From NCBI RefSeq assembly GCF_029872055.1, contig NZ_JARXNQ010000005.1, positions 9,895 through 73,894 on the forward strand: 64,000 nucleotides of DNA, read 5' to 3'. A program made the translations under genes and the position numbers. Below, piece by piece: positions 2,123-8,970 of this stretch; position 1 is the first letter of the stretch; each line of letters begins with the position of its first letter. Below the pieces are notes generated by a model. It did no database searches. It was not told the DNA's origin and was given only the letters and a program-made list of their open reading frames with translations. Origin of the DNA: Sulfurimonas sp. C5. GTDB lineage: Bacteria > Campylobacterota > Campylobacteria > Campylobacterales > Sulfurimonadaceae.

Positions 2123-4216
2123 ATGTACTATAATACACCGAACATTCATAGATACCTCGACTTTATAGTCAAGTTTCGCAAATTCATCATTTTATTTTTT
2201 ATATTTTTAGCAACATTGAGTGCTACACTTTTTCAACCGAAATTTTTATCATCAGACGAATTGTTTTGGCTTAACAGTTCAAAAGAGTTGCAAAAAACGG
2301 AATCAAAAAATTTCACTACCTATATACAGTCAAAACTAATTGTAAAAATTGAAACACTTAACGATGAGACACTTAGCCTTTTACAAAAGCTTCATACAGA
2401 CTTGTCATCACTTAAAAATGTCAAAAAAGTCTCCTCTATTTTTAGTAATGATTTTATTGAAAACAGATATGATTCAAATAGTTCAAATATGCTTGTTGTT
2501 CTTAACGGTACAGAAGTAGATACTTTCAAATTAAAACAACTTCTTAAATCGGCACATAATGACTATTGTAATGTCGTAGATAAAGAGTTTTCAACATTCT
2601 ATTTCTATATAAGTGCGACAGAAAAACTAGATATCTCCGGCTTAAAAATTCCGGGTAAATATCAGTATATAGATTCTGTGGATGAGATCAAATGGAGTAT
2701 ATTATTTATTTATGCATTTATCTTTGCATCTGTTCTTTTACTTCTCTTTAGAGTATTATTTAGAAACTATATTGCAGCTTTTATTGCAATGTTTGTCATT
2801 ACTCTCTCTACTGTACTGACATTTACTACTATAATTATGCTCACGGGAATACATACTATCCATATTACTATGCCGTTTATTACAATCAGTATTGCATTAG
2901 TTGAATTTTTGTATTTTTATTATCGCTGGCATGTATCACAGTATAAAACAAATGTTTTTCATTCTTTGAGAAAAATGCTTAACAGAAGTATGATACCGGC
3001 AATGTGGACATCAGTACTTACGATCCTAGGTCTGGGAAGTTTGGTACTGATAGACTCAGACATTATTAAACTGCTGAGTCTTAGTGTAATTGTTTCATCT
3101 GTTATGAGTTATATATTAAATCTAACTCTGCTCCCTGCCCTTTTAAGCTACTTTACACTGAAGCACACACATGTACCATATGCAAAACTTGGATTTATGC
3201 TTTCATCGAATGAGCTTCACTACAATAGAAAGTTTTTATATACGTTTTTATCTATAACTTATTTACTTTTACTTGTCGGTGGTTTTTTGATCTATTCTAA
3301 AAGTCATAATTTTTTTGAACTTCATGTACAAAATGAACAGATTGAACTCAAGATACCATACGAACAAATAGATTTAAACCTCATCAATTCTCTAGACCAA
3401 TTCTCACAGGACATCCAAGAAAAATTTGAAGATGGTTTGGGAGACGTAGTCTCAGTAGTCACACTTATTAAAAACCTTAACGAAGCGAATACGCAAACAG
3501 ATACACTTGATGAAGAAGCTTTACTGCAAGCACTGTTTTATATTGACCTCTATAAACTCAATGACAAATATTTTGATGATAATTCTGTTAATCTTGTTAT
3601 TAACATATTCGATATCAATAAACTCGAATTGCTGGACTGGCTGGTTAACTATAAGGGAATTAATCTTTATTTTCTTGATCAAGATTCGCTTTTAAGTATT
3701 GCCAAATACAATCAGACAATTTTATTGGCTACTTCACTCTTTGCAGCACTGTTTTTAATTGGACTTGTTACAGGATGGATATTTAGATTAAAGACTATGA
3801 TATTTGTCGGTTTTAGCGTAAACCTCATCCCGATATTGTGGTTTGGAGTCCTAATTACCGTATTTGATATACCTCTGAGTTTAGAGATGCTCATAGCAAT
3901 GACTATCTCTTTAGGGCTTGCTTCGGATGCGACAATCCACTTTGCTTTTAAATACTTCCGTCTACGTTATTTCGGGCATTCACAAAAACATGCCCTCGAA
4001 AAAGTGTTTTTCTATGCAGGTATTCCGGTAATTATAGGTTCAATAGTACTGATCACTATTTTTGGTTCACTTTACTTTTCCCAAGTACAGTCTCTACAAC
4101 TCATCGGTTTATACAGTGCACTACTCATTACTCTTTCTTTACTGAGTGATCTCTTTATTCTTCCTGTAATGCTTTTATTTGTAGATAAGTATCACCAACT
4201 CAAACAAGCTCGTTAG
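2123..4216 (+). CDS. RND-superfamily (MMPL-type) exporter
   Basis: A 697-residue integral membrane protein with the duplicated RND layout: one helix (about 19-37), a large periplasmic loop (about 40-185), a five-helix bundle (about 188-345), then a second helix (about 370-390), loop and bundle (about 533-690). At about 700 residues it belongs with the short MMPL/predicted-exporter group rather than the 1000-residue multidrug HAE pumps. No adaptor (membrane fusion) or outer-membrane gene is adjacent. The GLASDATIHFAFKYF segment in the second half matches the conserved helix of the MMPL family. The substrate is unknown; lipids, hydrophobic compounds or small exported molecules are typical. It is paired with the preceding CRYS thioredoxin-fold gene. 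Its stop codon overlaps that of the convergent AsmA-like gene. Confidence 0.85.
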   Translation: MYYNTPNIHRYLDFIVKFRKFIILFFIFLATLSATLFQPKFLSSDELFWLNSSKELQKTESKNFTTYIQSKLIVKIETLNDETLSLLQKLHTDLSSLKNVKKVSSIFSNDFIENRYDSNSSNMLVVLNGTEVDTFKLKQLLKSAHNDYCNVVDKEFSTFYFYISATEKLDISGLKIPGKYQYIDSVDEIKWSILFIYAFIFASVLLLLFRVLFRNYIAAFIAMFVITLSTVLTFTTIIMLTGIHTIHITMPFITISIALVEFLYFYYRWHVSQYKTNVFHSLRKMLNRSMIPAMWTSVLTILGLGSLVLIDSDIIKLLSLSVIVSSVMSYILNLTLLPALLSYFTLKHTHVPYAKLGFMLSSNELHYNRKFLYTFLSITYLLLLVGGFLIYSKSHNFFELHVQNEQIELKIPYEQIDLNLINSLDQFSQDIQEKFEDGLGDVVSVVTLIKNLNEANTQTDTLDEEALLQALFYIDLYKLNDKYFDDNSVNLVINIFDINKLELLDWLVNYKGINLYFLDQDSLLSIAKYNQTILLATSLFAALFLIGLVTGWIFRLKTMIFVGFSVNLIPILWFGVLITVFDIPLSLEMLIAMTISLGLASDATIHFAFKYFRLRYFGHSQKHALEKVFFYAGIPVIIGSIVLITIFGSLYFSQVQSLQLIGLYSALLITLSLLSDLFILPVMLLFVDKYHQLKQAR

Positions 4217-4227
4217 AAGAGCTTGTT
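4203..4227. terminator. Bidirectional terminator hairpin over two overlapping stop codons
   Basis: A perfect 9-bp inverted repeat, AACAAGCTC (4203-4211) and GAGCTTGTT (4219-4227), has a 7-base loop. The loop holds the stop codons of both convergent genes (plus 4214-4216, minus 4213-4215). Neither flank has a strong T-tract, so termination efficiency is uncertain. Confidence 0.6.
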
Positions 4228-6225
4228 GAAGAGTTTATCCAGCTGTTTGTTTGCCTCTTTTTTGATAGCTTTGTTTGCTTCATCTTTAATGATTGCACTC
4301 GCATCCACTTTCACTTTAGGTGATTCAACATTACCTTGAAGCGTAACATAAATTGCTGGATTATTATTTGCAATAATTTTAATATTCGAATCAATATTTT
4401 TTGTTTTTGAGTTTAACTTTGTGTCTTTTGTATAGATAGAAGACGTGTTAGACTTTAAATCTAGAAGAGCCGTTATGTTTTCTTTTTTAATCACAGCGTT
4501 TGCATTTCCGACAAATTTTTGTTTATAGAGATCCACTTTTGCAAACTGTTTTGTCAAATCTAAGATCTGATTTGGCATAAACAATCCATCTTTTAGATCA
4601 GCATCAAATTTCCCGCTAGCTTGTGCCAGATTATATGTCACTTTAGCATCAATATTTGATTTGAACACTTTGGGATAGATCAGCATATCTAAAATATCCA
4701 AAGTCTGCATCTTATTTATGTAAGCGACAAAATCATCATTATGCAGTTTTGCATCTAATTTTCCACCTGCAAAATTACTTACTAGGGTAAAATCCAAATC
4801 TTTTGCTTTTTTCAATTCACCTGTAGCTACGATCGCACCTTTTAAATGTCTTTGAGTAACAAAAAAGAGCCTATCTAAATCATGAATAATAGCTTGATAA
4901 TCACTTGATATGGAACTCTCTTTTAGATCAAATCGTGCCTGCTTAATATCTAAGTTTGCCATATTTGACTTGAGTAGTACTTTAGTATCTATCTTTGTTC
5001 CTTTTAGTACAGTGTTTGTCTTAGCACTGAATGTAGTATACGGCATAAGTGATTTGAACTCATATGTCTTCGTAAGATATTTACTGTCAAGTACACCCTC
5101 TGTTATTGCCGTGTTTACATTACCTTGTAAGTTTTTCGGATCTAAACTACTCAAAGCTGCATCCAGATTAAATGTAGCATCTGCGTAATGGGGCTGTTTA
5201 ACCATATAAAGAAGTTTTTGCAGTTTTAAATGTTTTATAGCCAGTTTTACACTATCAGGCTGGAAGTTTTTAAGATCAGCTTGAAAAGCAGTTAAAGAAT
5301 CTGCAATATCACTCTTTCCGTCTATTACCATTTTTTCTTTTGAACCTTTTACCGTTCCGCTAAGATTGAGTGCACCTCTAATGTCTGCTTGAGTGAGAGG
5401 TTTTAAAACAGCAAGTTCTTGAACATTTAGAGCATACGTCGAGTCTATATTTAAAGGTTCCGGTACTACTTTTCCTTTAGAACCTATTTTTGCGAGGTTT
5501 GAATTAAGTAAGTAATTATAAATAAGATCATCACCCTGGAGCTTTGCATCGAGCTTCATTTTAAAAGCAGTTTCAGGAATTGTAAGTTGAAAGTCTTTTT
5601 TCATAACTTGTGTATTTAACTTTCCATTTGTAGTTAAGAGTTTTACATCTCCGTCAAGTTGATGCGGTTTGATATTTTTAAAATTCAGGTCAAGATCAAC
5701 CTGTGCACTTGCATACTGTTTTTGCCCTGCCATTGCAAGCAAAGTACTTAGATCTAAGTTATCAATCTTAGCGATGATTGAAGTAGGATTAAACTCCTGC
5801 AACTCTACATGATATCTTGTAGCACTCTTAGCAAGATCACTTTTTCCATCAATTGTAAGAAGTTTCGAGTTACCTACAACAGTCCCGTCTGTCAGAAATG
5901 AGCCTGAAAGTTTTGTTTGAGTCAGTGCTTCCAAAGATGCTAATTTATTCAGAACTACATTGTATTTGAGATCAAAAGACTGAGCAAATAGTGAATACTT
6001 TCCTTTTACAGATATACTATTGTCTTGATCGAGGAATAAAACAAAATCTATACTACTCATATTGAGTACAAATGTTTCTAACTTCACATCCTGTTTTGTT
6101 GCTTCTTTAATTTTCCCCTCTATAATAGGACCTACAATACCATTACCGAAACTTGTAAACGCTAAAACATAAATTCCTATAACCAATACGATCACTATCG
6201 CTGCAAACCACTTTAGAAACTTCAT
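4213..6225 (-). CDS. AsmA-like membrane-anchored repeat protein
   Basis: A 670-residue protein starting at the ATG at 6225, chosen because GGAG stands 5 bases upstream; a longer frame to 6285 has no ribosome binding site. An N-terminal helix (about 5-25) is followed by a long beta-rich periplasmic region. At least two copies of a unit of about 176 residues are visible, each with IDGKSD, an F-x-P-x-S step and a Y-A-(S/D)-A motif (units beginning near residues 125 and 301). This architecture fits the AsmA/TamB/YhdP group of periplasmic bridge-like proteins implicated in lipid transport or outer-membrane assembly. The family assignment is moderately sure; the exact function is unknown. The gene is divergent from grpE-dnaK and convergent with the RND exporter. 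Confidence 0.7.
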   Translation of the reverse strand: MKFLKWFAAIVIVLVIGIYVLAFTSFGNGIVGPIIEGKIKEATKQDVKLETFVLNMSSIDFVLFLDQDNSISVKGKYSLFAQSFDLKYNVVLNKLASLEALTQTKLSGSFLTDGTVVGNSKLLTIDGKSDLAKSATRYHVELQEFNPTSIIAKIDNLDLSTLLAMAGQKQYASAQVDLDLNFKNIKPHQLDGDVKLLTTNGKLNTQVMKKDFQLTIPETAFKMKLDAKLQGDDLIYNYLLNSNLAKIGSKGKVVPEPLNIDSTYALNVQELAVLKPLTQADIRGALNLSGTVKGSKEKMVIDGKSDIADSLTAFQADLKNFQPDSVKLAIKHLKLQKLLYMVKQPHYADATFNLDAALSSLDPKNLQGNVNTAITEGVLDSKYLTKTYEFKSLMPYTTFSAKTNTVLKGTKIDTKVLLKSNMANLDIKQARFDLKESSISSDYQAIIHDLDRLFFVTQRHLKGAIVATGELKKAKDLDFTLVSNFAGGKLDAKLHNDDFVAYINKMQTLDILDMLIYPKVFKSNIDAKVTYNLAQASGKFDADLKDGLFMPNQILDLTKQFAKVDLYKQKFVGNANAVIKKENITALLDLKSNTSSIYTKDTKLNSKTKNIDSNIKIIANNNPAIYVTLQGNVESPKVKVDASAIIKDEANKAIKKEANKQLDKLFNKLF

Positions 6226-6268
6226 AGTCACTCCAATTATTATAATTCTATAATGATACAAAAAAAAC

Positions 6269-6289
6269 TGAAATGAAAGAAACATTTCA
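6269..6289. repeat. 7-bp inverted repeat upstream of the AsmA-like gene
   Basis: TGAAATG (6269-6275) and CATTTCA (6283-6289) form perfect arms around a 7-base A-rich spacer. It lies 44 bases upstream of the AsmA-like start codon, close to where the minus-strand promoter should be. It could be an operator; no regulator is identifiable. Confidence 0.4.
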
Positions 6290-6291
6290 TA

Positions 6292-6312
6292 CTTGATATA
6301 AATAGACTCAAC
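6292..6312 (+). promoter_or_regulatory. HAIR-like HspR operator, distal copy
   Basis: The sequence is CTTGATA, 7 bases, ACTCAAC. The known HspR-associated inverted repeat (HAIR) is CTTGAGT-N7-ACTCAAG. The match is 5/7 plus 6/7 with exactly the right spacing. It lies between the AsmA-like gene and the grpE promoter, 49 bases from a second copy. HspR binding is inferred. Confidence 0.6.
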
Positions 6313-6340
6313 TTTATTTATAGATTGAAATTAAACTATA

Positions 6341-6361
6341 CTTGACATTATTACACTCAAT
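6341..6361 (+). promoter_or_regulatory. HAIR-like HspR operator overlapping the grpE -35 box
   Basis: The sequence is CTTGACA, 7 bases, ACTCAAT, matching HAIR at 5/7 and 6/7 positions with the exact 7-base spacer. Its left half contains the -35 hexamer TTGACA, so a bound repressor would block sigma-70 RNA polymerase. This predicts HspR-repressed, heat-inducible transcription of grpE-dnaK. Confidence 0.65.
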
Positions 6362-6370
6362 ATGTATAAT
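6342..6370 (+). promoter_or_regulatory. Perfect sigma-70 promoter of grpE-dnaK
   Basis: TTGACA (6342-6347), a 17-base spacer and TATAAT (6365-6370) match the sigma-70 consensus at every position. A perfect -35 is unusual in this phylum. An 11-bp perfect inverted repeat (6343-6353 and 6367-6377, 13-base spacer) spans both boxes and may be a further operator. Confidence 0.85.
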
Positions 6371-6406
6371 AATGTCATCTTTTGAGAAAAGGAGCGTAAA
6401 ACAGTT

Positions 6407-6958
6407 ATGTCTGAAGAAAAAAACGATATAAAAAATGAAGAGATTCAAGAAGATGTAGAAGTTACAAATGAAGAAGCTCAAGCAGATGAACAAGCTGTTG
6501 AGAATGAATTTGATCTTTTACAAAATGAACTAAATACACTAAAAGATAAATATGCACGTGTTCATGCTGATTTTGAAAACATCAAAAAAAGATTAGAACG
6601 TGAAAAGTATACTGCCGTTGAATATGCAAATGAAAAATTTGCAAAAGATATGGTTCCTGTAATCGACTCGTTAGAGGGAGCTTTAAAGTCTGTTGCAACA
6701 GATGCAGATAAAGCAGAATTATTCGATAAATTAAAAGAGGGGATTGAATTAACATATAAACAATTTTTGACTTCCCTTGAAAAACACGGTGTAACAATGG
6801 TATCACATGATGAACCTTTTGATCCGAATATCCATAATGCTATCCAAAGTGTTGATAGTGAAGATGTAGAAAGTGGACAAATTGTTCAAACTTTCCAAAC
6901 AGGATATAAATATAAAGAAAGACCATTACGTGAAGCAATGGTTGTAGTGGCAAACTAA
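6407..6958 (+). CDS. grpE: GrpE nucleotide exchange factor
   Basis: A 183-residue GrpE, the cytoplasmic co-chaperone that releases ADP from DnaK. An acidic, disordered N-terminus (about 1-30) leads into a long coiled coil with DFENIKKRLEREK (about 55-68). The beta domain carries HDEPFDPNIHNAIQ and ends with RPLREAMVVVAN, both typical of the family. AAGGAG stands 12 bases before the ATG, a long but plausible spacing. hrcA, often next to grpE in this phylum, is absent here. Transcription is predicted from the perfect promoter at 6342-6370 under HAIR-like control. dnaK follows after 122 bases, so the two are probably co-expressed. Confidence 0.96.
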   Translation: MSEEKNDIKNEEIQEDVEVTNEEAQADEQAVENEFDLLQNELNTLKDKYARVHADFENIKKRLEREKYTAVEYANEKFAKDMVPVIDSLEGALKSVATDADKAELFDKLKEGIELTYKQFLTSLEKHGVTMVSHDEPFDPNIHNAIQSVDSEDVESGQIVQTFQTGYKYKERPLREAMVVVAN

Positions 6959-6970
6959 AAATTGTCACTA

Positions 6971-6986
6971 TGCAACTAAAGTTGCA
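6971..6986 (+). repeat. Short palindrome between grpE and dnaK
   Basis: TGCAACT and AGTTGCA are perfect 7-bp arms with a 2-base centre, 12 bases after the grpE stop. No T-tract follows, so it is not a classical terminator. It may be a transcript-processing hairpin or a protein site. Confidence 0.35.
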
Positions 6987-7080
6987 AAACGAATTTTTGA
7001 AAGATCGTACAATATCGATGTTTTAAAAAAACTAAATAAATTTTAACAAGTAAAAAAAGAAATACATAAAAGGAAAAAAA

Positions 7081-8970
7081 ATGAGTAAAGTAATTGGTAT
7101 AGACTTAGGTACAACAAACTCTTGTGTTGCTGTATACGAAGGTGGTGAAGCAAAAGTTATCCCAAATGCAGAAGGGAAAAATACAACTCCGTCAGTAGTA
7201 GCCTTCACTGATAAAGGTGAGGTTTTAGTTGGTGATCCGGCAAAACGTCAAGCTATCACAAACCCTGAAAAAACAATCTCTTCTGTTAAGAGAATTATGG
7301 GTCTTATGATGAACGAAGAAAATGCTAAAAAAGCGCATGACAAAGTTACTTATAAGATTGTAGATAAAGACGGTATGGCTGCTGTTGATGTTGCTGGTAA
7401 AATCTACACGCCACAAGAAATTTCGGCAAAAATCTTAACAAAACTAAAAGAAGATGCGGAAGCTTACTTAGGTGAAAAAGTTACAGATGCTGTTATTACA
7501 GTTCCTGCTTACTTTAACGATGCACAAAGAAAGGCTACAAAAGATGCTGGTACAATTGCTGGACTTAATGTTCTTCGTATCATCAATGAGCCTACTGCAT
7601 CTGCACTTGCTTACGGACTAGATAGCAAATCTGATGAGAACGTTTTAGTTTATGACCTTGGTGGTGGTACATTCGACGTTACAACTTTAGAGATCTCTGA
7701 CGGTACTTTTGAAGTTCTTTCAACTGACGGTAATGCATTCCTTGGTGGTGACGACTTCGATAACAAGATCGTTGATTTCTTAAATGATGAGTTTAAAAGC
7801 TCTCACGGTATCGATCTTAAAAATGACAAAATGGCACTGCAACGTCTAAAAGATGCTGCTGAAAATGCTAAAAAAGAGCTTTCTGCATCGACTGAAACTG
7901 AGATTAACTTACCGTTCATCACGATGACTGAAGCTGGACCACAACACTTAGTTGTAAAATTAACTCGTGCTAAGTTTGAAGGTATGATTGACGGTCTTGT
8001 TAAAGAGACTATGGATCACATCTCAACTGCGATGAAAGATGCAGATTTAGATAAAGGTGATATTAAAGAGATCATCATGGTTGGTGGTTCTACTCGTGTA
8101 CCATTAGCTCAACAAAAAGTAAGTGAATACTTCGGTGGTAAAGCACTTAACAAATCTGTAAACCCAGATGAAGTTGTTGCTGCTGGTGCTGCTATCCAAG
8201 GTGGTGTTTTACGCGGTGATGTAAAAGATGTTCTTTTACTAGACGTTACTCCGTTATCACTTGGTATTGAAACTCTTGGTGGTGTTGCAACTAAAGTTAT
8301 TGAAAAAGGTACTACGATTCCTGTTAAGAAATCTCAAGTATTCTCAACTGCTGAAGACAACCAACCGGCAGTATCTATCAATGTAGTTCAAGGTGAGCGT
8401 GAGTTCGCTAAAGACAATAAATCTTTAGGTTTATTTGAACTTGGTGACATTCCTGCTGCTCCACGTGGTGTACCTCAAATTGAAGTAACATTCGATATCG
8501 ATGCAAACGGTATCTTAACTGTTAGCTCAACTGATAAAGGTACTGGTAAATCTCAATCTATCACTATCTCTGGATCATCTGGTCTAAGTGAAGAAGAGAT
8601 CAACAAAATGGTTCAAGATGCAGAAGAGCACAAAGCTGAAGATGCAAAAAGAAAAGAATTAGTTGATACTAAAAACCAAGCAGATGCACTTATCGCTCAA
8701 ACAGAAAAAACTATGGAAGAGATGGGTGACAAACTTGAAGACTCTGAAAAAGCAAACATTGTTGCGGCAATCGATGCTCTTAAAGAAACACTAAAAGATG
8801 AAAATGCTACTAAAGAGCAAATTGAAGAAAAAGTAAAAGCTCTTAGCGAAGCAAGTCACAAAATGGCTGAGCAAATGTACAAACAACAACAAGAAGGACA
8901 AGCTCAAGGTGGAGCTGATACTTCTAAAAAGAAAGATGACGACGACGTTATCGACGCTGAAATCGAATAA
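7081..8970 (+). CDS. dnaK: Chaperone protein DnaK (Hsp70)
   Basis: A 629-residue Hsp70, the ATP-driven chaperone that folds and protects cytoplasmic proteins with GrpE and DnaJ. The N-terminal phosphate-1 motif is [14 protein letters not shown] (residues 5-18), and further ATPase motifs are [11 protein letters not shown] and [12 protein letters not shown]. The substrate-binding domain starts near [14 protein letters not shown], and the tail [11 protein letters not shown] is the canonical DnaK C-terminus. Length is normal. AAAAGGA lies just upstream of the ATG. dnaJ is not in this window. An intrinsic terminator follows at 8999-9019. Confidence 0.98.

Follow-up and report, generated by a model that had tools for sequence, protein, structure and literature searches.

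Two HAIR-like sites at the grpE promoter of Sulfurimonas sp. C5 point to HspR control without HrcA, and a further conserved element precedes dnaK

The grpE-dnaK locus and its paired HAIR-like sites

We analysed 64,000 nt of contig NZ_JARXNQ010000005.1 of Sulfurimonas sp. C5 (assembly GCF_029872055.1, positions 9,895-73,894), and refer to this whole stretch of DNA as the window. An earlier reading made from the letters only (the sequence-only reading) had claimed that the grpE-dnaK promoter carries two HAIR-like operators of the repressor HspR, each matching at 11 of 14 positions with exact spacing and 49 bases apart, that the second of them covers the -35 box, and that hrcA is not beside grpE. 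The sequence bears these claims out: both sites are present, with starts 49 bp apart and spacers of exactly N7, a perfect sigma-70 -35 box is embedded in the proximal one, and the gene upstream of grpE is not hrcA but a divergent AsmA-like gene, for which a Pfam match was not found. The features of the locus, in window coordinates, are the following.

4213-6225, minus strand: divergent AsmA-like gene, so named in the sequence-only reading; start 6225 preferred, frame open to 6285
6292-6312, plus strand: upstream HAIR-like HspR operator (predicted), CTTGATATAAATAGACTCAAC; 11/14; roughly -85 to -65 relative to the predicted transcription start
6341-6361, plus strand: proximal HAIR-like HspR operator (predicted), CTTGACATTATTACACTCAAT; 11/14; -35 box within the left arm
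6342-6347, plus strand: -35 box TTGACA of the grpE promoter; 12/12 together with the -10 box, 17-bp spacer
6365-6370, plus strand: -10 box TATAAT of the grpE promoter; transcription start near 6377, placed from spacing only
6407-6958, plus strand: grpE (PF01025)
6971-6986, plus strand: palindrome TGCAACTAAAGTTGCA, a second, non-HAIR element before dnaK
7008-7013, plus strand: -10-like box TACAAT, 21 bp downstream of the palindrome and part of a predicted internal promoter for dnaK
7081-8970, plus strand: dnaK (PF00012)

Sites were scored over the 14 arm positions of the Streptomyces HAIR consensus, CTTGAGT-N7-ACTCAAG. At least 11 of these are matched at four positions in the 64 kb window, where the two grpE sites form the sole pair within 60 bp, and when the 181-bp intergenic region was put through 20,000 dinucleotide shuffles, a single one contained two non-overlapping sites of at least 11/14. 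With regard to the random frequency of CTTGA-N9-ACTCAA, a check that the sequence-only reading had proposed, the exact pattern proved rare, with five occurrences in the 2.06 Mb genome (two at grpE, one at the cbpA-hspR promoter and two within coding regions), and only the loose version with two mismatches was about as frequent in the window as chance would give (30 versus 32.5 expected), so that the signal is carried by the exact matches and by conservation.

Two other candidate features of the promoter region were set aside: a 14-pair inverted repeat across the promoter (6343-6377) was rejected as an operator, as perfect 11-bp arms are confined to Sulfurimonas sp. C5 and one near relative and the arms decay in most congeners, and a possible hairpin in the 5' UTR covering the grpE ribosome-binding site, considered by eye, has a stem sequence that other genera do not keep. 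An Rfam search over 6150-7120 found no structured RNA above threshold.

Conservation of the site pair

Relatives collected by GrpE comprised Sulfurimonas and close kin. All of the first 30 loci (the genome itself, 28 congeners and one other genus) carry an upstream HAIR besides the proximal site, and of the 79 named loci from the genus and its close kin that could be scored, 77 keep the two 49-50 bp apart, although as counts over related sequences these are not independent trials. An upstream HAIR was counted if it reached at least 9/14 at about -49 or -50 relative to the proximal site, a score that control offsets reach in 0.5% of cases. Elsewhere in the family, the pair was likewise present in 20/20 loci of other genera. 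The upstream neighbour of grpE varies among congeners, and both sites are kept regardless; the earlier suggestion that they might also control the AsmA-like gene is thus unsupported, because the pair persists where a different gene lies upstream.

The proximal HAIR is shared across the class, with conserved arms and a variable spacer. Three genomes of family f4 (L169, L170 and L172) carry a form with a 6-bp spacer, CTTGACA-N6-ACTCAAT, at the grpE promoter.

HspR and the cbpA promoter

The genome (2.06 Mb, 99.97% complete) holds three MerR-type genes. The sequence-only reading had proposed to look in it for hspR and for a HAIR site at cbpA, and both are there: hspR lies on contig 6, directly behind cbpA, and scores 116.5 against the curated HspR cut-off of 105 bits (NF047375), while the cbpA promoter carries CTTGATT-N7-ACTCAAG, a 13/14 match that is stronger than either grpE site and overlaps a TTGACA-18-TATAAT promoter, read by eye. 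A HAIR of at least 11/14 at the cbpA promoter is shared by 28 of 30 relatives, and a protein search with this HspR gave a match, one of them weak, in 113 of 121 genomes of the family.

A second, lone HspR-like MerR protein is encoded on contig 4 at about 130.1 kb (stretch L037, 1601-1942). It is 33% identical over positions 4-85 and falls below the cut-off, at 44.6 versus 105 bits. Extra HspR-like copies of this kind occur in only 4/121 family genomes, at the sensitivity of that protein search.

Absence of HrcA and CIRCE

The sequence-only reading had also stated that CIRCE is absent, and this holds genome-wide, with no match at up to three mismatches. For hrcA itself, the Pfam model PF01628 had to be rejected as evidence that the gene is lacking, since it misses 297 of 298 genomes of the class and two grpE-linked HrcAs that are recognised by NCBIfam receive zero Pfam matches. 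The model gave no match in the family, but this negative result is uninformative, because it misses nearly the whole class. Most sampled relatives in the class have an open frame directly upstream of grpE, and the three that were tested all match NF003033 (HrcA family). We therefore relied on a class-specific HrcA profile built from 14 such grpE-upstream frames, which detects HrcA in 226/298 class genomes. By this profile hrcA, whose presence the sequence-only reading had proposed to check, is found in 0/26 genomes of the family, that of Sulfurimonas sp. C5 included, a count that follows from all positives being listed and none coming from the family. HrcA is also missing from all sampled genomes of families f4 and f9 and from one genus of f2, and it seems to have been lost several times in the class (in the family of Sulfurimonas sp. 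C5, f1, in f4, in f9 and in that f2 genus).

The distribution of CIRCE follows that of the protein. Among class promoters in which a proximal HAIR was found, CIRCE (at least 12/14) lies downstream of it in 35/35 hrcA-positive and in 0/33 hrcA-negative loci; of the 20 loci in this count from other genera of the family, only some are from genomes individually tested for hrcA. An upstream HAIR is present in 11/35 loci of the hrcA-positive families, mostly in family f3, so that the pair is not unique to the loss of hrcA.

A second element before dnaK, clpB and hsp20

The palindrome before dnaK is 16 bp long, of the form TGCNAC-YTAR-GTNGCA, and is centred at about -41.5 from the inferred transcription start. 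A candidate palindrome of at least 9/10 is present in 36 of 68 distinct dnaK upstream regions from the genus; the best -10 hexamer stands at one fixed offset in 32 of these 36, and two other candidates fall within grpE. We count 34 true elements in the 68 regions, about half, and the motif derived from them consists of the palindrome, A/T tracts and the -10 box. With regard to the geometry of a class II activator-dependent promoter (CRP/FNR-like), for which one would expect a palindrome centred near -41.5 and a -10 box but no -35 box, the analysis showed a fixed spacing from palindrome to -10 box, the transcription start being placed by inference.

A matrix made from the dnaK elements of other species, with the two nearest relatives left out, was scanned over about 1.2 Mb (59%) of the genome. 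Its top three matches lie before dnaK, clpB and hsp20, and the fourth, which is the last above threshold, lies inside a coding region; the clpB locus had been chosen for the scan as a chaperone locus, and the hsp20 locus came from an unselected sample. The element before clpB (stretch L078, 464-449, minus strand) is found in this genome and its two nearest relatives, and that before hsp20 (PF00011; stretch L337, 12918-12960) in this genome. Neither HAIR nor CIRCE occurs within the shared element. DnaK, ClpB and Hsp20 form the team that carries out protein disaggregation.

Arm positions 4 and 13 of the palindrome vary in a mostly pairing-compatible manner, and the clpB copies break the pairing there. 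The fixed spacing to the -10 box and the unpaired clpB copies favour a putative DNA operator over an RNA hairpin, and the sharing of the element by dnaK, clpB and hsp20 suggests, from the sequence, that there may be a second heat-shock regulon independent of HspR. We give an even chance to the fuller proposal, according to which Sulfurimonas would possess a regulon independent of both HspR and HrcA, with the palindrome at the place of a class II activator before these three genes and a putative regulator, perhaps of the CRP/FNR type, that would convey heat or stress wherever HrcA is no longer present.

Proposed control of grpE-dnaK

We consider it very probable that grpE-dnaK is repressed by HspR through the proximal HAIR, which covers the -35 box, and the upstream HAIR, without HrcA or CIRCE. 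From analogy with known systems we infer HspR binding, cooperativity, repression and the heat signal at the grpE promoter. HspR, which belongs to the MerR family and whose gene follows cbpA at another place in the genome, would occupy the proximal site with one dimer, thereby covering the -35 box and blocking RNA polymerase, while a second dimer 49 bp upstream would stabilise the complex, probably cooperatively. The same protein would repress its own cbpA-hspR operon through the 13/14 HAIR. With HrcA and CIRCE gone from the family, HspR would be the only classical heat-shock repressor at the grpE promoter, and derepression would have to come through HspR itself, perhaps by titration via CbpA or DnaK. 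The "HspR-only" control of the operon that the sequence-only reading had predicted thus stands at the grpE promoter with regard to HrcA, but dnaK is preceded by a conserved promoter-like element that it has in common with clpB and hsp20 and that points to a further input independent of HspR, and the claim is therefore limited to the grpE promoter.

One could argue that the proximal motif is merely a strong sigma-70 promoter and that its HAIR likeness, the upstream copy included, is incidental, given that the consensus -35 box lies within the left arm CTTGACA and partly explains the conservation of that arm, and that the window holds no more loose matches to the HAIR pattern than chance predicts. 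The right arm ACTCAA, however, lies in the promoter spacer, and among 70 class promoters picked by their sigma-70 boxes only, 65 retain 5-6 of its 6 positions (the f4 loci with the 6-bp spacer being three exceptions), as against 0/35 control promoter-like sites; the upstream copy, moreover, has no promoter role and yet is kept in register, which makes the incidental explanation very unlikely. It is more improbable still that both sites are bound mainly by the HspR-like MerR protein of contig 4 instead of HspR: this protein does score against the HspR family, but its relatives are restricted to those few family genomes with extra copies, whereas the HAIR sites are near universal.

A more serious alternative accepts HspR at the grpE promoter but has dnaK transcribed mainly from the internal promoter under a different regulator, so that HspR would not be its main control. 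The conservation of the dnaK palindrome and -10 box at fixed spacing, and the recurrence of the same element at clpB in three genomes and at hsp20, speak for such an arrangement. Against it, the start of the internal promoter is a prediction, the element is missing from about half of the dnaK upstream regions sampled, and the palindrome could instead be an RNA hairpin, as the mostly pairing-compatible changes at positions 4 and 13 would allow, although pairing at these positions is broken in the clpB copies. On balance we regard this alternative as a substantial possibility, with somewhat less than an even chance of being correct.

Relation to known systems

HspR is known to bind, and to repress through, HAIR-like sites at the cbpA and hrcA-grpE-dnaK promoters of Campylobacter jejuni and Helicobacter pylori (PMC7464140, PMC6102357), and at the C. 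jejuni promoter Phrc (hrcA-grpE-dnaK) it acts on several HAIRs together with HrcA on CIRCE (PMC7464140). Sulfurimonas sp. C5 resembles C. jejuni in having several HAIR-like sites upstream of or around the grpE-dnaK core promoter and a further HAIR at cbpA-hspR, and differs in lacking HrcA and CIRCE, in placing one HAIR exactly on the -35 box, and in having clpB and groES genes without HAIR. As in H. pylori, a HAIR overlaps the cbpA-hspR promoter (autoregulation) and the grpE-dnaK operon is a target of HspR (PMC6102357, PMC6032397), the latter by prediction in our case; unlike in H. pylori, the HspR site lies over the -35 box and there is no HrcA. The dnaK operon of Streptomyces coelicolor, in the summary given by PMC6102357, is under HspR control through three HAIRs; repeated HAIRs at the dnaK operon are thus a shared feature, whereas in Sulfurimonas sp. 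C5 hspR lies outside the operon and the sites are two, each 11/14 to the Streptomyces consensus. The arrangement at grpE is thus a variant of a known system, in that HspR is kept and HrcA is missing, one HAIR coincides with the -35 box and the other holds a fixed register; greater novelty lies in the second element.

HrcA acts as the protein thermometer in H. pylori, where HspR itself is not temperature-responsive (PMC6032397). A whole family with HspR but without HrcA or CIRCE therefore offers a direct test bed for how heat is reported, be it by HspR or by something else, and for the latter role the element common to dnaK, clpB and hsp20 provides a specific candidate. We found no report of HspR control in Sulfurimonas in the literature; a metagenome study describes hspR in all samples and hrcA mostly in the 65 °C sample, assigned to Nautiliales.

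At clpB and groES, where the sequence-only reading had likewise proposed to look for HAIR sites, none above 10/14 and no CIRCE was found near either gene. An imperfect short inverted repeat, GCGAAGTT-CTTGTA-AACTTTCGC, was noticed by eye about 40 bp before the groES start (stretch L079, ~2060-2110).
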